DNA from: Pseudoxanthomonas sp. GM95 | GTDB taxonomy: Bacteria; Pseudomonadota; Gammaproteobacteria; Xanthomonadales; Xanthomonadaceae | Length of the DNA stretch: 64,000 nucleotides | Direction of reading: 5' to 3' | NCBI RefSeq assembly: GCF_900109775.1 | Contig: NZ_FOAX01000003.1 | Coordinates: 372,001-436,000 of the forward strand | In this document: positions 40,021-51,630 of the stretch, one piece after another | Layout of the letters: every line of letters begins with the position of its first letter | Position numbering within the stretch: the first letter of the stretch is position 1 | Position numbers and translations under genes: made by a program | The notes under the pieces: generated by a model | The model's input: the letters and a program-made list of their open reading frames with translations, nothing else | Databases searched by the model: none | Told to the model about the DNA's origin: nothing

Positions 40021-41508
40021 TCAGAACGCCACCTGCGCGCGCACGCCGACGGTGTTGCCCGAATCCGGTCCCTGGTAGCTGCCGACCTTGTTGTCGGTGC
40101 GCCAGTGCACGACGTTGAGCATCAGCCGCGCGAAGTTGGTCAGGTACCAGTTGACGCCGAAGGTGTAGGCCGACCCTTCGCCACCACGCGCGGTATCGGT
40201 GTAGTCGTAGTCGTCGTAGCGCGCCAGCACCTCGAACGCACCCCAGCCGCCTTCGGTGACCGGATTGAGCACCTTGGTGGTGGTCCACACGCCCGAGCGC
40301 GAGGAGAAGCCCGGCTTCTCGCCGGTCAGCAGCCAGCCGGCGTAATAGCTGCTGGCCTTCTGGTCGCGCGAGGCTTCGGTGTCGGAGTTGATGGTGCGCA
40401 CCGTGGTCTCGGCGAACGCCCAGCCGCTGCGCCAGGTGCCGCCCAGCTCCGCGCCCCAGGCGTGGTCGTCGGTGACGCCGCTGATGGAACTCGCCGAGAC
40501 GGCCACCTCGCCGTTCCAGCCCAGCGCGACCGGCGAGGTCTTGTTGATGCTGGTGACGTCATCGCCCAGCTTCTCGTACCAGTACCAGCCGCCGACATGC
40601 AGGAAGCCGGCGGGGGTCTTGATCGGGTTCCAGTGCGCACGCGCGGTGTAGGCGACGGTGTCGCTGGCATCGCTGTCGTTGCCGATGTCGTCGCCGGTCA
40701 CCGCCAGGCTGGCGTGCCAGTTGCTGCCGTAGAGCTTGGTCGACACGCCCAGGCCGAAATAGCCGCTCTGCATGCCGCCGACCGAGCCGACCGCGTTACG
40801 CTCCATGAACGGCGTGGTGGTGCCGCCGGTGGCGCCATCGATGCTGCGGTCCTTGAGCTTGTTGCCGATGTAGACCTCAGCCGGCAGGCCGCCCAGCTTG
40901 GTGTCCCAGGACAGGTAGACGTCCTTCATGGTGACTTCATTGCCGGCAAAATCCGCCTCGATCTTGTAGCCCAGCGGACCGGCTTCACCTTCGGCGCCGA
41001 GGCGGCCGCTGGCCATGTCGGTGCCGGTGACATTACGCGCGTCGAAGCCCGAGCCATGCGTGCTGCTGAAGTCCATCAGCACGCGTCCACGCGGATGGAA
41101 GGTGAAGGTGCCATCGGCGCTCTTGAACTCCGGCCCGCCATCGCTCCAGCTGACGTTGCCATCGCTTTTCGTACCACCGCCGGTGACGGCCATCTGCGCG
41201 ACCTGCGCCTTGAGGATCGCCAGTTCGTCATCGGTGCGCGTGTCGGCGACCGCTGCAGCCACCTGCACCTGGGTCGGATCGACCGGCGTGGTCACGCTCG
41301 CCGCAGCGGGCTTGCTGCCTTCCAGCGCGGACAGGCGTGCGTTCATGGCGCTGAGCTGTTGCTGCTGTTGCGCGATCTGCTGCGCCTGCAGCTCGACCAT
41401 CTTGCGCAGCTGCGCCTCGGTGGCGCTGTCGGCCAGCGCAGGCGTGCTGATTGCGGACAAGGCGCTGGCGATCGCCGCGGCCAGCGCGGCGTGTCGGACG
41501 TGCTTCAT
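40021..41508 (-). CDS. OprO/OprP-like outer-membrane porin
   Basis: A 495-residue outer-membrane protein: signal peptide (AAIASALSAISTPALAD, cut near residue 26), a Gln-rich coiled-coil-like segment (QLRKMVELQAQQIAQQQQQL, about 34-55) and a beta-barrel from about 130 (FHPRGRVLMDFSST) to the C-terminal Phe of RAQVAF. The plan is that of the phosphate-selective porin O/P family, which in Xanthomonads is diverse in substrate. It lies 42 bases downstream of the esterase-like gene on the same strand, so they probably form an operon in which the porin admits the substrate or product of the hydrolase. Phosphate specificity is not assumed. Confidence 0.88.
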   Translation of the reverse strand: MKHVRHAALAAAIASALSAISTPALADSATEAQLRKMVELQAQQIAQQQQQLSAMNARLSALEGSKPAAASVTTPVDPTQVQVAAAVADTRTDDELAILKAQVAQMAVTGGGTKSDGNVSWSDGGPEFKSADGTFTFHPRGRVLMDFSSTHGSGFDARNVTGTDMASGRLGAEGEAGPLGYKIEADFAGNEVTMKDVYLSWDTKLGGLPAEVYIGNKLKDRSIDGATGGTTTPFMERNAVGSVGGMQSGYFGLGVSTKLYGSNWHASLAVTGDDIGNDSDASDTVAYTARAHWNPIKTPAGFLHVGGWYWYEKLGDDVTSINKTSPVALGWNGEVAVSASSISGVTDDHAWGAELGGTWRSGWAFAETTVRTINSDTEASRDQKASSYYAGWLLTGEKPGFSSRSGVWTTTKVLNPVTEGGWGAFEVLARYDDYDYTDTARGGEGSAYTFGVNWYLTNFARLMLNVVHWRTDNKVGSYQGPDSGNTVGVRAQVAF

Positions 41509-41550
41509 GGTGGTAATTCCCGTGCAAGGGCGGCCCGCGGGCCGCGGGCA

Positions 41551-42537
41551 TCAATCGCCGTCGGTGGCGGTCGGTGAAGCGGGGTCGAGGGCGGGCGCGT
41601 TGGCATCTCGCATGAAGCCGTGCATGCGCGCCCAGGTGGCGAACAGCCGCGGCCACTGTGCCGGTTCGCTGCCCGGTTTGCCCAAGCCCCAGCTGTGGCC
41701 GCCGCGTTCGAAGATATGCAGCTCCACCGGCACCTTGGCCTTCAGCGCGGTCTGGTACATCAGCAGGCTGTGGCCGACATCGACGATGGGATCGTCCACC
41801 GCCTGGGCCAGGAACACCGGCGGCATGTCGGCGCGCACGTGGTCTTCGACCGAGTACGCGGTGAGGTAATCGGACTGCGTGGACAGCTCACGCGCGCTGC
41901 GGGTCTTATCCAGCGGCGGCTTCACCGACACCACCGGATACAGCATCGCCAGGAAGTCCGGCCGCGCGGACAGCGCATCGGCCGCATCCGCGCGCGGATA
42001 GAAATCGTGATCCCAGCGCGTGGCGATGATGCCGCTCAGGTTCGCGCCGGCCGACGAGCCGATGATGCCGATCTTGTTGGCATCGATCTGCCAGTCCGCC
42101 GCGTGGCTGCGCATCAGCCGCATCGCGCGCTGTGCATCCTGGAACGGCGCCTCGGCTTTCCAGCCATCGCCCGGCAGCCGGTAATACAGCACCGCGCTGG
42201 TCACGCCGATCGAGGCCAGCCATTGCGCCATCGGTCGTGCCGCACTGCCGACCTGGATGCGGAAATAGCCACCACCGCCGACGATCAGCGCGGCAGTCCC
42301 GTTGGGATGCGCCGCGCGGTAGATCTCGATCCGTGGATTGGACACCTGGCTCACCGAGCCGGTGGCGCTGCCCTGCTTGCCGACCTTTTCAGGCCCTTTC
42401 ACCACCTGCGGCAAGCTGCCTTCAGGCCAGAGCGTGAGTGTCTCGGTGGGTGCATCGTGGGTCTGCGCCCACGCCGGCATCGTCGCCAGCACCAGGCATG
42501 CCACACACCCGCGCATCGTGCGCATCAGTCGCTGCAT
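41551..42537 (-). CDS. Exported alpha/beta-hydrolase, acetyl-xylan/carbohydrate esterase-like
   Basis: A 328-residue protein with a signal peptide (GCVACLVLATMPAWAQ). Catalytic triad is visible: nucleophile Ser162 in GSSAGANLSG, Asp in AVDDPIVDVGHS, His in RGGHSWGLG. Opening TLWPEGSLPQ and the oxyanion region VGGGGYFRI place it with BD-FAE/acetyl esterases that deacetylate plant polysaccharides. First gene of the operon with the 40021-41508 porin. An inverted/direct repeat region at 42675-42706, 138 bases upstream, is a candidate control site. Exact substrate unknown. Confidence 0.87.
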   Translation of the reverse strand: MQRLMRTMRGCVACLVLATMPAWAQTHDAPTETLTLWPEGSLPQVVKGPEKVGKQGSATGSVSQVSNPRIEIYRAAHPNGTAALIVGGGGYFRIQVGSAARPMAQWLASIGVTSAVLYYRLPGDGWKAEAPFQDAQRAMRLMRSHAADWQIDANKIGIIGSSAGANLSGIIATRWDHDFYPRADAADALSARPDFLAMLYPVVSVKPPLDKTRSARELSTQSDYLTAYSVEDHVRADMPPVFLAQAVDDPIVDVGHSLLMYQTALKAKVPVELHIFERGGHSWGLGKPGSEPAQWPRLFATWARMHGFMRDANAPALDPASPTATDGD

Positions 42538-44586: not shown

Positions 44587-44630
44587 AATGCAGTCAGCCA
44601 AAGACTCGGCGTGCATCACGTAAAGAAGGA

Positions 44631-44656
44631 CCACTGCCGCGCGTTGGCGGCAGTGG
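44631..44656. terminator. Bidirectional hairpin between AraC and amidohydrolase genes
   Basis: A perfect 10-bp stem CCACTGCCGC / GCGGCAGTGG with a six-base loop, flanked by GAAG and CTTC that extend the pairing. It lies between the two convergent stop codons. Confidence 0.7.
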
Positions 44657-44671
44657 CGTCTTCTGAAGCGC

Positions 44672-46087
44672 TCAATAATCCAGCGTCTTGGAAAAGTCGG
44701 ACACCTTCTTGGTGACCGCGCCCCACTCTTGCCGCTGCTTGTCCAGGTCGATCGTCAGCACCTTGCCGTCGCGGGCGACGATGCGGCCGTTGACGATGGT
44801 GGTGTGGATGTCGCCGGCATTGGCCTGGTAGACGATGGCCGCGTACACGTCGTACATCGGCTGCATGTTGAGCGAGTGGGTGTCGATCAGGATCACGTCG
44901 GCGGCCTTGCCCACTTCCAGCGAGCCGATGCGCTTGTCCATCTTCAGTGCGCGCGCACCGCCGATGGTCGCCATCGTCACCAACTCCGGTGGCTTGAAGG
45001 TGGTTTCCTCCGGGTGACGGATGTTGGCCACGCGCTTGGCGTAGCCCATCACCGAGACGATATCCATCTGGTTGCCGCTCAGCGGACCGTCGGTGCCCAG
45101 GCCCACGTCCATGCCGGCGTGCACCATTTCCAGCGCCGGGGACAGACCGCCGTGGCCCTTGGTATTGGCCTTGGGGTTGTGCGACACGCCCACATCGCGC
45201 GCCTTGAGCAGGGCGATGTCGGCATCGCTGGCACGCAGCACGTGCGCGGCCAGCAGGCGCGGGCTGAGGATGCCGGTGGAATCCAGGTAAGCGAGTTCAT
45301 CATTGAACTTGGCCGCCTCCGGGAACTTGGTCTTGACCCGCTCCCACTCATCCGGCGGCTCGGCCAGGTGCATCAACACCGGCACGTCGTACTGCTCGGC
45401 CGCCTGCTGGATCTTGGTCAGCATCTGCGGCGACACCGAGTACGGCGCATGCGGTGCGAATGCCGGGGTGATCAGCGGATCGCCCTTGAACTGTTTGATG
45501 AAGTCCACCGCGTAATCGAAGCCGCCGTACGGCTGCGGCGCATCGACCACGGGGAAGTTCATCACCGTCTCGCCCAGCACGCCACGAATGCCGACATCGC
45601 GCACGGCCTTGGCCACTTCGTCCTCGTGGTAGTACATGTCCACCACGGTGGTCACGCCGCCCACGGCCAGTTCCATCGCCGCCTGGCGCGAGGCCACGTT
45701 GATCAGCTGGCGGTCGAGCATCTTGCTCTCCAGCGGGAAGAAGAACTTGCGCAGCCGGTCATCGGTGCGGTACTCGCCCAGCCCGCGGAAAGCCATCATG
45801 GCGATGTGATTGTGCGCGTTGATCATGCCGGGCATGGCGATGTCGCCGTGCGCGTCGATGGTCTGCGTGGGCGCGTAATCGCGCTCCAGGCCGGCATCGC
45901 CCACGGCGACGATGTTGCCGCCGTCGATGATCAGCGTGCCGTTGTCATAGACGTGCAGCGCGCCGTCCATCGTCACCACCTTGGCGTTGACGATGGCCAG
46001 CGAAACCGGCTTGCCGGCCGCCAGCGCGGCGGGCGCCAGGGCAAGGCCCAGCGCGGCGCTGACCGCGAGGGAAAGCAGCTTGTTCAT
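44672..46087 (-). CDS. Exported amidohydrolase of the TRZ/ATZ (MTA/SAH deaminase-like) family
   Basis: A 471-residue metal-dependent hydrolase. It has a signal peptide (LLSLAVSAALGLALAPAALA, cut near 24), which is unusual because most relatives (5-methylthioadenosine/S-adenosylhomocysteine deaminase, guanine deaminase, triazine hydrolases) are cytoplasmic. Metal ligands are visible: His92 and His94 in NAHNHIAM, HLAEPPDEW, AHVLRASDADIAL and Asp in GLGTDGPLSGNQMD. The C-terminal WD-type composite domain ends near IVNGRIVARDGKVL. AAGGAG precedes the ATG at 46087. It lies 148 bases downstream of a TonB receptor on the same strand, suggesting joint uptake and processing of a heterocyclic or amine compound. 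Confidence 0.9.
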   Translation of the reverse strand: MNKLLSLAVSAALGLALAPAALAAGKPVSLAIVNAKVVTMDGALHVYDNGTLIIDGGNIVAVGDAGLERDYAPTQTIDAHGDIAMPGMINAHNHIAMMAFRGLGEYRTDDRLRKFFFPLESKMLDRQLINVASRQAAMELAVGGVTTVVDMYYHEDEVAKAVRDVGIRGVLGETVMNFPVVDAPQPYGGFDYAVDFIKQFKGDPLITPAFAPHAPYSVSPQMLTKIQQAAEQYDVPVLMHLAEPPDEWERVKTKFPEAAKFNDELAYLDSTGILSPRLLAAHVLRASDADIALLKARDVGVSHNPKANTKGHGGLSPALEMVHAGMDVGLGTDGPLSGNQMDIVSVMGYAKRVANIRHPEETTFKPPELVTMATIGGARALKMDKRIGSLEVGKAADVILIDTHSLNMQPMYDVYAAIVYQANAGDIHTTIVNGRIVARDGKVLTIDLDKQRQEWGAVTKKVSDFSKTLDY

Positions 46088-46194
46088 TTCAAAACTCCTT
46101 GAAGCGGTGCCCGCGCCAACCATCTCGCGATGACAGCGGCGCACCAGGAAGAAGGCAGCGTCGTCCCCGCTTACGCAAGGACGAGGTGTGATCG

Positions 46195-46229
46195 GATGCG
46201 ACGCCAGGCGCGAAGCCCGGCGCCGCATC
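46195..46229. terminator. Hairpin between TonB receptor and amidohydrolase genes
   Basis: GATGCG (46195-46200) pairs with CGCATC (46224-46229), and inner CGCC/GGCG and GGC/GCC pairs continue the stem with mismatches between blocks. It starts seven bases beyond the receptor stop codon. With no U-tract it may attenuate or stabilise the transcript, giving unequal expression of the two genes. Confidence 0.5.
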
Positions 46230-46235
46230 ACTCGA

Positions 46236-48476
46236 TCAGAAGTGCAGCGAATACTCCACGCCGATGATGCGCGGATCGTTCACCATCGCGGCCCGGCTGA
46301 TGAAGCTGGAGGTGGCGATGATCACGCGACGGTCGGTGAGGTTGCGTGCATACAGCGCCACTTCCTGCTTGCCCAGGTCCCAGTTGTAGCCCACGCGCAG
46401 GCCACCCAGCAGCACGGCCTTGCTGTTGTATTCCACCGAGTTGTACAGGTACTGGTTGAGCTTGCTGCGGTAGTTCCAGTCGGTATAGGCGAACACCTCG
46501 CCCGTATCGCCCACCGGCAGGCTGTAGCGCGCGGTGAAGGCGCCGATGTACTTGGCCGCACGCGGCAGGCTGTTGCCGTCGATCAGCGCGCGGCGGTTGG
46601 CGTTGCGCGGGTCCAGCACGGTGCAGTTGCTGCACGCGGCCACGGCCAGGTCCGGGTCCTTGATCTCGGTCTCGTTGTAGCTGCCGCCCAGGGTGAAGGC
46701 CCAGTTCGCATTCGGGCTGAATTCCAGGTCGAACTCGGCGCCGTAGCCATCGGTACGGTCGATGTTGACCAGGTCGGTGGCGTTGCTGGTGGCGGCCACG
46801 GCAGTGACCTGCTGGTCATGCATGACGAAGCCGTAGACATCGGCGTTGAAGCGCAGGCGGCCGTCCAGGCCGGTGCTCTTCACGCCGAACTCCAGCGAGT
46901 TGATCGTCTCGGCCTTGGCGGTGGAGATGTTGTTCTTGCCGGTCAGGCGGCCCTGCACGCTGGGCGCGCGGAAACCGTTGGCAAAGCGGCCGTACACGCT
47001 GACGCGGTCGGTCAGGGTGAAGGTGCCGGTCAGGTCGCCGCTCCAGTGCGCGTCACCCTGGTCCACGTCGATCGGGCCCAGCGCGCCGGTGTAGCCGTAG
47101 AAGCGCTGCACGGTGTAGTCCTTGTCCTCGTGCGAGTAGCGCAGGCCGGCGCGCACGTCGAAGCGGTCGGTGAAGCGATACGCCAGCGAGCCGAACACCG
47201 CCGCCGCGCTGGTGGCCTGGTGCTGGCGCACCGCCGCCGTGCGCGTGGTGCCGGTGTGGTCGTAGTTGAAGTTGTTGATGTCGATGTTTTCGTAGAAGTA
47301 GTACAGGCCGGTCTGCCAGCGCAGGCGCGCTTCAGCGTCGTTGGCCACGCGCAACTCCTGCGTGATCTGGCGGTGCTGCGGGATCTCGTCAGCGGTCTGC
47401 GAGAACGAGGTCAGCGCGCTGGACGGCATCGCCCACACCGGCGCACCGGCGCTGGCCAGGTAGCCGCCATCCACGTCGCCCAGGCTGAAGGCGCGCACGC
47501 GCTCCAGGCCGGTGATCGAGGTGAAGGTCAGGCCATCGCGGTACCAGTTGAGCTTGGCGCTGGCGCCCCAGCTGGTGACGCTCTCGGTGTTGCGGCCATC
47601 GGAGGCCACGCGGTCGATGTCGAAGCCCGGCACCAGCGCCGGCGTGCCCTGCTGCACGGCGTTGGGGCGGAAGATCGCCGCGCTGCCGTCGTAGTCGCGC
47701 ACGTGCGCGCTCAGCAGCGCATCGAAATCTTCGCCGGTGTACATCGCCTGCAGGCGCAGCGCGCGGTCGTTGTAGCCGCCCAGCGCGTCGTGCTTGCCGG
47801 TGTAGGCATTGTCGATCCAGTGGTCGCGGTGCTGCACCAGGAACGAGGCGCGGCCGGTCCAGCCGTTGTTGCCCAGCTTGCCGCTGATGGCGCCTTCCAC
47901 GTTGGCGGTGCCGAAGGTGCCGTAGGACACCTTGGCGTAGCCCTCGGTCTCTTCGGTCGGCTTGGCCGAATCGAACTTCACCACGCCGGCCGGCGAGTTG
48001 CGGCCGAACATCGTGCCCTGCGGGCCACGCAGCACTTCCACCTGGTCCAGGTCGAACATCGGGAAGCCCTTCAGCAGCGGGTTTTCCTGCACGATGTCAT
48101 CGAACACCAGCGACACCGGCTGCGACGCATTGGCGTCGTAATCGGTGTTGCCCAGGCCACGGATGTAGAAGCGCGGGAAGGTGCGGCCGTAGCTGCTTTC
48201 CACCTGCAGGCTCGGCGAGCGGCCGGCCAGCTGCACCAGCGTGTCGCCGGAGGCGCCATAGGCAGCCAGCTTTTCCGGATCGACGACCGAGATGGACATC
48301 GGCACCTTCTGGATGTCCTCGGGACGCTTGTCGGCGGTCACCGTGACGTTCTTCAGCGTGTGCGCGGTGGAATCGGCCTGGTCCTGCTGGGCCAGTGCAA
48401 GGGAGGGGACGGTCGCCAGGGCGAGCGCGATCGCGCTGCCGAGCCGGAGCTTCGGAAGCCGGGTGTGGGAGATCAC
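46236..48476 (-). CDS. TonB-dependent outer-membrane receptor
   Basis: A 746-residue protein: signal peptide (GSAIALALATVPSLALAQQ), a TonB-box-like VTVTADKR near residue 45, the plug domain (SYGRTFPRFYIRGLGNTDYD and VEVLRGPQGTMFGRNSPAGV, about residues 60-170), then a 22-strand barrel ending in YSLHF with C-terminal Phe. It imports a ligand across the outer membrane using TonB-ExbBD energy. The GTG at 48476 with AGGAA upstream is the only start that begins at the signal peptide. The amidohydrolase downstream may process the ligand. The plug resembles receptors of organic solutes rather than a clear siderophore class; the ligand is not deducible. Confidence 0.92.
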   Translation of the reverse strand: MISHTRLPKLRLGSAIALALATVPSLALAQQDQADSTAHTLKNVTVTADKRPEDIQKVPMSISVVDPEKLAAYGASGDTLVQLAGRSPSLQVESSYGRTFPRFYIRGLGNTDYDANASQPVSLVFDDIVQENPLLKGFPMFDLDQVEVLRGPQGTMFGRNSPAGVVKFDSAKPTEETEGYAKVSYGTFGTANVEGAISGKLGNNGWTGRASFLVQHRDHWIDNAYTGKHDALGGYNDRALRLQAMYTGEDFDALLSAHVRDYDGSAAIFRPNAVQQGTPALVPGFDIDRVASDGRNTESVTSWGASAKLNWYRDGLTFTSITGLERVRAFSLGDVDGGYLASAGAPVWAMPSSALTSFSQTADEIPQHRQITQELRVANDAEARLRWQTGLYYFYENIDINNFNYDHTGTTRTAAVRQHQATSAAAVFGSLAYRFTDRFDVRAGLRYSHEDKDYTVQRFYGYTGALGPIDVDQGDAHWSGDLTGTFTLTDRVSVYGRFANGFRAPSVQGRLTGKNNISTAKAETINSLEFGVKSTGLDGRLRFNADVYGFVMHDQQVTAVAATSNATDLVNIDRTDGYGAEFDLEFSPNANWAFTLGGSYNETEIKDPDLAVAACSNCTVLDPRNANRRALIDGNSLPRAAKYIGAFTARYSLPVGDTGEVFAYTDWNYRSKLNQYLYNSVEYNSKAVLLGGLRVGYNWDLGKQEVALYARNLTDRRVIIATSSFISRAAMVNDPRIIGVEYSLHF

Positions 48477-49724: not shown

Positions 49725-50558
49725 TCAGCCGTCAGTCGAGACCGTCAGCGCTTCCCATTGGGTCAGTTCGTCCTGCAGCGCGACCAGCTTCTCGCGCACC
49801 AGCTTCAACGCATCGCTGCCCAGCAGCAGGTGTGCCGGCGGCGCGTCGCTGTCGATCGCGGCCAGCATCGCGCGTGAAGCCTTTTGCGGATCGCCCAGTT
49901 GCTTGCCGCTGACGTCCTGCCGGCGCTGGCGGATGGGATCGAACACTGCGTCGTAATCGGCAATCGTGCGCGGCGCGCGCACCATCGAGCGGCCGGCCCA
50001 ATCGGTGCGGAACGAGCCCGGCGCCACCGAGGTCACGCGGATGCCCAGCGCGGCCACTTCCTTGCCCAGCACCTCGCCGATGCCTTCCAGCGCGAACTTG
50101 CTGCCGCAGTAGTAGGCGATACCCGGCATCGTGATGAAGCCGCCCATCGAGGTGATGTTGAGGATGTGGCCGGCGCGGCGCGCGCGCATGTGCGGCAGCA
50201 CCGCCTGGATCATCGCCACCGCGCCGAACACGTTGACGTCGAACTGCTTGCGCATCGCGTCCAGCGGCGATTCTTCCAGCACGCCTTCGTGGCCGTAGCC
50301 GGCGTTGTTGACCAGCACGTCGATGGCGCCCAGCGTGGCTTCCACCTCGTCCACCACCGGCGCGATGGCCTCAACGTCGGTGACATCCAGCAGGCGCGCG
50401 AACGCGCGGCCCGGCGCGAGCGCTTCCAGCTGCGCGGCGGCCTCGGCATTGCGCACGGTGCCGACGACGCGATGCCCGGCGGCCAGGGCTTCGACCGCGA
50501 GCGCGCGGCCAAAGCCGCTGCTGGCGCCTGTGATGAGGAGGAGTTTCGAAATGGACAT
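49725..50558 (-). CDS. Short-chain dehydrogenase/reductase (retinol-dehydrogenase-like)
   Basis: A 277-residue SDR. Cofactor loop TGASSGFGRALAVE at residues 10-23, VTDVEAIAPV acidic loop, NNAGYGHEG, catalytic Ser in NITSMGG and Tyr-x3-Lys in YYCGSKFALEGI. The longer C-terminus (substrate-binding region PGSFRTDWAGRSM) fits the oxidoreductase subgroup that many AraC/LysR modules carry. It diverges from an AraC gene across 91 bases. Substrate unknown. Confidence 0.9.
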   Translation of the reverse strand: MSISKLLLITGASSGFGRALAVEALAAGHRVVGTVRNAEAAAQLEALAPGRAFARLLDVTDVEAIAPVVDEVEATLGAIDVLVNNAGYGHEGVLEESPLDAMRKQFDVNVFGAVAMIQAVLPHMRARRAGHILNITSMGGFITMPGIAYYCGSKFALEGIGEVLGKEVAALGIRVTSVAPGSFRTDWAGRSMVRAPRTIADYDAVFDPIRQRRQDVSGKQLGDPQKASRAMLAAIDSDAPPAHLLLGSDALKLVREKLVALQDELTQWEALTVSTDG

Positions 50559-50649
50559 GGCAATCTCTGCGGTGTGCGGAAGCTGTGCACAATACGCAGG
50601 CCGCGCCCTCGATCTAAGGCGCAGATCGCTCACATCCTTGCCTATTCCT

Positions 50650-51630
50650 ATGACACGCCGAACAGCCAGCTCCGCCCAAAACCTCACCGACGGCCTGCTG
50701 CCGCTGGCCCCGCTGGTGCTGGCGCTGGCCCCGCACGAGGGCTACAGCCTGACCGCGCTGGAAGGCGTGCGGATGCTGCGCTCGGACCGGCCGCTCGCGC
50801 GCACGCCGGTGCTGTACGACCCTGGCATCGTGATCGTCTGCCAGGGCTGCAAGCGCGGCTATTTCGGCCAGCGCACCTACGTATACGACGCGCATCAATA
50901 CCTCGCCGTCTCTGTGCCGGTGCCCTTCACCATGGAAACCGACGCCAGCGCCGAGGAACCGCTGCTGGCGCTGTACCTGCATCTGGACTTTCCGCTGGCG
51001 GCCGAACTGATGCTGCAGATCGACCAGCACGACGATGCTTCGACGCGCGCCACCTCCAGACGCGCTGCGCCGCAAAGCATGCTCTCCAGCCCGATCGACC
51101 CCGCCCTGCACCAGGCGGTGCAGCGCCTGCTGCAGGCGCTGGCCACGCCGATGGACGCCGCCATCCTGGGGCCGCAGTGCTTGCGCGAGCTGTACTACCG
51201 CATTCTCACCGGCCCGCAAGGCCCCACGCTGCGTGCAGCGCTGGCGATGCAGGGCCACTTCGGCCGCATCGGCAAGGCCTTGCAGCGCATCCACGCCGCC
51301 TACGACCAGCCGCTCACCGTCGCGCATCTGGCCGAGGACGCCGGCATGAGCGCGCCTTCGTTCCACAGCCACTTCAAGGCCATCACCTGCGCCTCGCCCA
51401 TGCAGTACCTCAAGTCCACGCGCCTGCACCAAGCGCGCCTGCTGATGGTGCGCGAACGCATGACCGCCGCCGCGGCCTGCCACGCCGTCGGCTACGAAAG
51501 CCCCTCGCAGTTCAACCGCGAGTTCAAGCGCCTGTTCGGCCTGACCCCTGCGCGCGAAGTGCAGCGCATGCGCGACCACTTCGCGGTACCGCCGAAACAA
51601 GCGAATGCGACGTTTGTGTCGTCGCACTGA
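50650..51630 (+). CDS. AraC-family transcriptional regulator
   Basis: A 326-residue regulator. The sensor half (about 30-190) carries GIVIVCQGCKRGYFGQRTYV and YLHLDFPLAAELML in the AraC_N pattern; the DNA-binding half (about 215-315) has VAHLAEDAGMSAPSFHSHFK and CHAVGYESPSQFNREFKRLF. Divergent from an SDR, as with the 43690 gene. It likely activates that SDR on sensing a small molecule. The two AraC/SDR modules could be distant duplicates. Confidence 0.92.
   Translation: MTRRTASSAQNLTDGLLPLAPLVLALAPHEGYSLTALEGVRMLRSDRPLARTPVLYDPGIVIVCQGCKRGYFGQRTYVYDAHQYLAVSVPVPFTMETDASAEEPLLALYLHLDFPLAAELMLQIDQHDDASTRATSRRAAPQSMLSSPIDPALHQAVQRLLQALATPMDAAILGPQCLRELYYRILTGPQGPTLRAALAMQGHFGRIGKALQRIHAAYDQPLTVAHLAEDAGMSAPSFHSHFKAITCASPMQYLKSTRLHQARLLMVRERMTAAAACHAVGYESPSQFNREFKRLFGLTPAREVQRMRDHFAVPPKQANATFVSSH

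Follow-up and report, generated by a model that had tools for sequence, protein, structure and literature searches.

A stretch of 64,000 nucleotides from Pseudoxanthomonas sp. GM95 (contig NZ_FOAX01000003.1, positions 372,001 to 436,000), referred to here as the window, carries a gene for a TonB-dependent receptor followed by a gene for an amidohydrolase of the TRZ/ATZ (COG0402) type with a predicted export signal (Table 1). The genome (G000) amounts to 4.69 Mb and the pair lies on its contig C6. A first-pass annotation of the stretch had described a receptor with a GTG start and, on the same strand, a TRZ/ATZ-family hydrolase with a signal peptide; the open reading frames, the Pfam domains and the letters themselves bear this out, and the length it gave for the gap between the two genes was confirmed.

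Table 1. Features of the receptor and hydrolase genes, in positions of the window
Feature	Position	Strand	Remarks
TonB-dependent receptor	46236..48476	minus	746 aa, GTG start, signal peptide, plug and beta-barrel
Gap between receptor and hydrolase	46088..46235	minus	148 bases; starts with a GC-rich hairpin, no T run
TRZ/ATZ (COG0402-type) amidohydrolase, exported (predicted)	44672..46087	minus	471 aa, Arg111 clade; likely purine/adenosine-type deaminase
Signal peptide region of the hydrolase	46019..46087	minus	first 23 residues, read from the letters
Terminator-like stem-loop directly past the hydrolase stop	44630..44657	minus	11 pairs, from a scan

The receptor is placed among the TonB-dependent receptors by a Plug domain (62.8 bits against a Pfam cut-off of 23.9) and a TonB_dep_Rec_b-barrel domain (98.1 bits against 27). 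Judged from the letters, its N-terminus contains a signal-peptide-like hydrophobic stretch ending in SLALAQQ, and AGGA is located 10 bases upstream of the GTG. The hydrolase begins with an ATG at 46087 and its stop codon ends at 44672; the longest in-frame open reading frame starts farther upstream than this ATG, and a Met is aligned with the ATG in both close relatives. The hydrolase N-terminus, MNKLLSLAVSAALGLALAPAALAAGKP, has by eye the form of a classical signal peptide, with a 12-residue hydropathy maximum of 2.27, and the location of the enzyme would be periplasmic rather than at the surface. An Amidohydro_1 domain scores 215.9 bits (Pfam cut-off 25), and the metal and catalytic residues H92, H94, H240, E243, H282 and D333 are invariant in a nine-row alignment and kept in every row having the column in an alignment of 28 rows, so that the protein belongs to the amidohydrolase superfamily, COG0402/TRZ-ATZ type, by both its domain and its intact residues.

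The closest solved structure to the hydrolase by sequence is 4f0r (E 2.4e-64). The best fold matches of a structure model are 4f0s, with bound inosine (Z 40.4), and 4f0r (Z 40.3), both at 28–30% identity in the fold alignment; this model is of middling confidence (predicted local distance difference test, pLDDT, 69.6) and was built from seven rows, including four at about 30% identity. In both the sequence and the fold comparison the structures of AtzA, TrzN and guanine deaminase rank beneath those of 5'-methylthioadenosine/S-adenosylhomocysteine (MTA/SAH) and adenosine-type deaminases. The first-pass annotation had pointed to triazines among other compounds, a direction not supported by the closest solved structures, which are those of adenosine/MTA/SAH deaminases. 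Action on a triazine or another xenobiotic heterocycle would have the family resemblance by name in its favour, yet the AtzA and TrzN structures rank under the adenosine-type enzymes and the neighbourhood links found, described below, are to purine genes; we consider it very improbable, and the triazine/atrazine route was rejected on these two grounds.

The hydrolase is below the curated cut-off for all 25 NCBIfam models shown (the best 25 of 60 matches), and its scores are short of the cut-offs of the MTA/SAH deaminase model NF012037 (182.9 of 779), the TRZ/ATZ hydrolase model NF006549 (316.2 of 540) and the guanine deaminase model TIGR02967 (155.3 of 375.4). The second TRZ/ATZ hydrolase of this genome, a separate and leaderless gene, passes NF006549. 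An APHAPY segment of the hydrolase is common to adenosine/MTA-type enzymes, and Glu120, whose equivalent in TM0936 is presumably a ligand contact, is kept; these two features favour an adenine-nucleoside-type substrate. The Trp that marks MTA/SAH deaminases, at what we take to be the position and role of Trp75 in TM0936, is Arg111 in the hydrolase. From its sequence, the most likely substrate would be an adenine nucleoside, either as such or with a 5' substituent or a phosphate, and guanine is ranked below these as less likely.

Close forms of the hydrolase, at 83–85% identity, are present in 3 of the 395 family genomes sampled, the window genome included. Within the genus only the window genome has the enzyme, the best matches in the other 37 genus genomes being 29–32% identical. 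One additional relative (44% identity) came from a class-wide sample of 369 genomes at E 1e-90. A nine-row profile searched across the order at E 1e-110 matched 10 of 299 genomes, namely the window genome, seven from the genus g330 and two from g350, both g350 rows being without the Arg signature. Twelve records from a plasmid collection hold relatives at 41–48% identity, from Vibrio, Photobacterium, Cetobacterium, Proteus and Qingshengfaniella, and eight unannotated records from a phage collection matched the hydrolase, the best two at about 39%.

A quick maximum-likelihood tree of 28 rows, in which five genus relatives and the window genome's own second copy were included, placed 16 rows, the hydrolase among them, on one side of a branch with a Shimodaira-Hasegawa-like approximate likelihood ratio (SH-aLRT) support of 99; the tree carries a long-branch warning, above all for the Qingshengfaniella row, whose placement is unsure. 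Position 111 is Arg in 15 of the 15 clade rows having the column and Trp in 12 of the 12 non-clade rows. A hydrophobic leader is present in 14 of the 15 clade rows with a complete N-terminus, the exception being Qingshengfaniella, and in one of 11 non-clade rows with an intact N-terminus; six of those 11 have fewer than 12 residues ahead of the domain, gave no hydropathy value and were scored leaderless. None of the five genus relatives, nor the second copy, has a hydrophobic leader. Export thus tracks the clade and not the window locus. The earlier view of export as a peculiarity of this locus is not supported by these counts, and the absence of receptor relatives near other clade members (below), a weak test, also disagrees with it. 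The single leader outside the clade belongs to a Trp-type COG0402 relative from another family of the order (L115:2323-3798), with a signal-peptide-like N-terminus, and leaders are accordingly not limited to the Arg clade. A lipobox was found in three of the 14 leader-bearing clade rows, those of Vibrio, Cetobacterium and Photobacterium (L032, L033 and L036), in which the enzyme type may be membrane-anchored; the predicted forms are soluble in Xanthomonadales and Proteus and lipoproteins in Vibrio, Photobacterium and the fusobacterium Cetobacterium.

The Arg substitution allows a different account of the export, namely that it serves a modified or charged adenine compound (MTA, SAH, 5'-deoxyadenosine, adenosine monophosphate or a cyclic nucleotide) and not a plain nucleoside, with Arg111 binding the 5' group or phosphate. 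The retention of Glu120, the replacement of Trp by Arg in every clade row with the column, the position of MTA/SAH deaminases as nearest solved relatives and a separate leader-bearing adenosine deaminase that already covers adenosine (below) are in keeping with this. However, the roles assigned here to Trp and Glu are presumed ones, and all five best PDB matches with alignments shown have Trp at this position, no solved Arg-clade structure being among them. On balance we hold this account to be rather doubtful.

The receptor and hydrolase genes are adjacent and co-directional in all three genomes with close forms, in two different chromosomal settings. Close receptor relatives (80–81% identical) occur among 390 family genomes in G038 (Stenotrophomonas sp. 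MMGLT7) and G066 (a Lysobacterales metagenome bin) only, adjoining the hydrolase, and the next best match is 50% identical. In G038 and G066 the gene order is Rieske oxygenase, receptor, hydrolase, reductase, so that the pair stands with hpxD and hpxE in both relatives that have it. Among solved structures the Rieske protein matches NdmA and SxtT; its copies in G038 and G066 share 69% and 65% identity with the HpxD-annotated Klebsiella protein, and the divergent LysR encoded in G038 shares 49% with annotated HpxR. The window genome has a relative of the Rieske protein at 72% identity, and this HpxD-like copy shares 75–77% identity, across 94% of its length, with proteins annotated as HpxD in Pantoea dispersa and Klebsiella (best 15 of 109 records). 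Because hpxD and hpxE are tightly spaced in four records (4 bases apart in the window genome, 1 in G089, 17 in G053 and 10 in Pantoea), the pair in G038 and G066 splits an otherwise tight gene pair. HpxD-like genes were found in 45 of the 395 family genomes (E 1e-60) and are far commoner than the hydrolase, from which it follows that most hpxDE units do without it. The G038 locus then runs on into an NCS2 permease, a leader-bearing adenosine deaminase, a second receptor and a nucleoside hydrolase. A comparable series that does not include the pair is present in G089, where the adenosine deaminase and receptor were scanned and the permease and nucleoside hydrolase were recognised by eye only.

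Other clade members also lie near purine genes. In g330, a genus of another family, four of the seven genomes encode a full-length XdhB-like protein divergently from the hydrolase, three directly and one with one frame between; these proteins score 747–758 bits, below the cut-off of 849.5. Of the remaining g330 genomes, two show no XdhB-like gene in the fetched stretch and in one a contig end interrupts the locus, and the four linked genomes, which share one genus, were counted as one event. The 41% relative in Qingshengfaniella is neighboured by ABC transporter genes, a nucleoside hydrolase, a phosphoribosyltransferase and an adenine-deaminase-domain gene.

We consider that the pair is probably a purine-scavenging module, in which an exported purine (adenosine-type) deaminase and an importer feed purine catabolism. 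A purine is the most likely compound, given that two relatives have the pair between hpxD and hpxE and that other clade members lie beside xanthine dehydrogenase or near nucleoside hydrolase. The receptor would import a purine nucleoside, or an adenine derivative related to one, through the outer membrane, and the amidohydrolase, as a metal-dependent member of the MTA/SAH/adenosine-deaminase branch of COG0402, would remove the 6-amino group in the periplasm to give an inosine- or hypoxanthine-type product and ammonia. This product would then enter via an NCS2-type permease, after a nucleoside hydrolase if it is a nucleoside, and would be oxidised by HpxDE or xanthine dehydrogenase towards urate, allantoin and ammonia. 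Within this scheme we infer the purine substrate, the deamination at position 6, the ligand of the receptor, the periplasmic (not surface) site and the co-regulation of the two genes. According to PMC7373994, a paper on the xanthine riboswitch, hpxDE-like dioxygenases, guanine/8-hydroxyguanine deaminase-like amidohydrolases and nucleoside transporters follow that riboswitch, and Klebsiella hpxDE oxidises hypoxanthine and xanthine, which fits the proposed mechanism. A search of the window and five related loci against Rfam at gathering score matched no riboswitch, hence a xanthine riboswitch was not seen there. The first-pass annotation had proposed a unit with an uptake-and-processing route for a nitrogenous compound; adjacency in three of three genomes and the export signal make this plausible, and the hpxD/hpxE position and the xanthine dehydrogenase neighbours make a purine the most likely compound. 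Its observation is thus confirmed and its interpretation partly supported.

Purine functions of the window genome are spread over three places: the hpxDE cluster, a second site at C9:347895 and the pair itself. The hpxDE cluster includes genes for PuuE allantoinase, a xanthine permease, an AtzE-family amidase, a gamma-glutamyltransferase, an allantoate amidohydrolase, HpxZ and hydroxyisourate hydrolase, all of whose products score above cut-off except the gamma-glutamyltransferase (348.8 of 357.85). Between the PuuE and xanthine permease genes lies a gene for a 998-aa TonB receptor with a carboxypeptidase-regulatory domain (L037:1035-4034, about 1223000–1226000 on C9), another candidate receptor for purines or ureides. 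At C9:347895 are an adenosine deaminase (PF00962, above cut-off) and a nucleoside-hydrolase-like protein (below NCBIfam cut-offs), both with leaders, and permease-like and receptor-like frames were seen nearby by eye. A recurring series of purine-type permease, leader-bearing adenosine deaminase, nucleoside hydrolase and TonB receptor was also observed in three genera (L125:5606-13531, L038:12849-19751 and L071:103-7103; some members by eye), the L125 and L071 receptors having a common N-terminus rich in TSNTTNSNAT; this looks like a nucleoside-scavenging locus of the family.

The gene content of the genome raises the question of whether the hydrolase could be a missing guanine-type deaminase, its product xanthine being the HpxDE substrate. 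The genome has a xanthine-urate pathway but yielded no recognisable guanine deaminase, and HpxD relatives carry the annotation molybdenum-cofactor-independent xanthine hydroxylase. Of the ten PF01979 matches in the genome, one is the hydrolase and seven were named (a TRZ/ATZ hydrolase, two prolidase-type proteins, HutF, NagA, dihydroorotase and HutI), none of the seven passing the guanine deaminase cut-off; the other two are weak matches. The low TIGR02967 score of the hydrolase itself and the APHAPY segment it has in common with adenosine/MTA-type enzymes run counter to this possibility, which we judge to be quite unlikely.

Several findings weigh against the purine-scavenging interpretation. 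With respect to the enzyme, the replacement of Trp by Arg111 makes transfer of a substrate from the MTA/SAH deaminases unsafe, and the leader-bearing adenosine deaminase already in the genome would make plain adenosine redundant as a substrate. With respect to the receptor, relatives are present in 255 of the 390 family genomes at E 1e-120, nearly all at less than 51% identity. No purine gene was noticed by eye in six neighbourhoods of 48–50% receptor relatives, so the receptor family alone is uninformative on the ligand, which we infer from gene linkage alone. That linkage comes from few independent cases, the pair being rare (3 of 395). The first-pass annotation had named lack of co-occurrence in related genomes as evidence that would tell against its proposal; at close range, where the two genes are always adjacent, this objection does not hold, but the pair is rare. 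In the window genome the pair is not beside hpxDE, which is on contig C9, and a motif from the LysR-hpxD intergenic region had no site ahead of the receptor, its matches in the window being no more than expected by chance. The gaps in the G038 and G066 loci are about 70–400 bases, making a single transcript uncertain, and the hairpin in the window gap could separate or tune expression of receptor and hydrolase. The AraC and SDR genes flanking the pair form a unit without it in all three sister genomes fetched. No obvious purine neighbours were seen for the relatives in Vibrio, Photobacterium, Proteus, Cetobacterium and G582. A blastp search (E 1e-3) of open reading frames from 13 clade-member stretches outside the three genomes gave no receptor relative in any of them, a weak test that covers close relatives only, as some stretches are 3.5–19 kb and the divergent L071 receptor is missed.

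This last result and the hairpin between the genes would suit an account in which the two are neighbours without a common pathway, the receptor importing iron chelates and the hydrolase being an independent exported enzyme. The best NCBIfam match of the receptor is likewise to a broad siderophore-receptor subfamily (TIGR01783), albeit below cut-off at 139.8 bits against 223.5. However, 80–85% forms of both genes were found only in the same three genomes (395 and 390 sampled), where they always adjoin one another, in two different chromosomal settings, and we therefore regard unrelated neighbours as unlikely.

The hairpin in the gap is GC-rich, has about 15 pairs at 46191–46230 right after the receptor stop codon, and with a z of -3.83 was matched by none of 200 shuffles. 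The gaps of G038 and G066 also hold hairpins, of different letters and weaker (z -1.98 and -2.53). A scan found no terminator in the 148-base gap, and a terminator function was rejected on this result and the lack of a T run; a repeat was rejected as well, the hairpin being single-copy in the window at up to 3 mismatches. Terminator-like sites numbered four in 4.4 kb against 2.5 (standard deviation 1.7) in shuffles, so that the stem-loop after the hydrolase is not above chance on its own. Recent foreign origin is unsupported by base composition, the GC content of the hydrolase (0.652) and receptor (0.669) comparing with a mean of 0.676 (standard deviation 0.025) over 1.4-kb blocks of the window.

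Among the surrounding genes, AraC and SDR were rejected as members of the system on account of their pair-free unit in the sister genomes. For another flanking SDR gene (49725–50687), 8 of the 38 genomes of the genus hold a match at E 1e-70. Farther along, window positions 40021–42537 contain a gene for a phosphate-selective porin O/P family protein adjoining one for a leader-bearing BD-FAE/pectin-acetylesterase-like hydrolase on the same strand.

Tentatively, the exported Arg-type COG0402 clade may act extracytoplasmically as a deaminase of adenine nucleosides or nucleotides; in Xanthomonadaceae it may have gained a dedicated TonB-dependent receptor as a partner and come to lie within hpxDE, giving TonB-driven purine uptake with periplasmic pre-conversion. 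Among the literature matches listed, titles and openings of abstracts contained nothing on the receptor-hydrolase pair or the Arg clade. If the purine interpretation holds, an orphan TonB receptor and an exported amidohydrolase clade in at least two phyla would gain a testable substrate class, and purine breakdown would start outside the cytoplasm. Purines in the extracellular space serve as host signals in addition to being nitrogen sources, and an exported deaminase could then also alter such signals.

Compared with known systems, the hydrolase has its fold, its metal and catalytic residues, an APHAPY-type segment and the Glu120 position in common with the MTA/SAH deaminases (4f0r/4f0s from Chromobacterium, 4dzh from Xanthomonas and 1p1m, TM0936), from which it differs in its leader peptide, in Arg111 and in its low identity. 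In Bacteroides, nucleoside and ribose scavenging uses SusC-type receptors, with SusC/D pairs and nucleoside hydrolases, and TonB-dependent uptake is tied there to nucleoside breakdown; we know of no COG0402 deaminase in those systems. Of the Klebsiella hpx system (HpxR, HpxDE, HpxO and HIUase), relatives of hpxD, hpxE and the LysR gene surround the pair in G038 and a related cluster is present in the window genome, whereas one Klebsiella and one Pantoea record have no receptor or hydrolase relative within 9–12 kb of hpxD, and the window pair lies elsewhere. The adenosine deaminase and nucleoside hydrolase loci of Xanthomonadaceae, with their leaders, employ another deaminase family (PF00962) and another receptor, but resemble the arrangement proposed here in dealing with purine nucleosides outside the cytoplasm and in having a TonB receptor in the locus.

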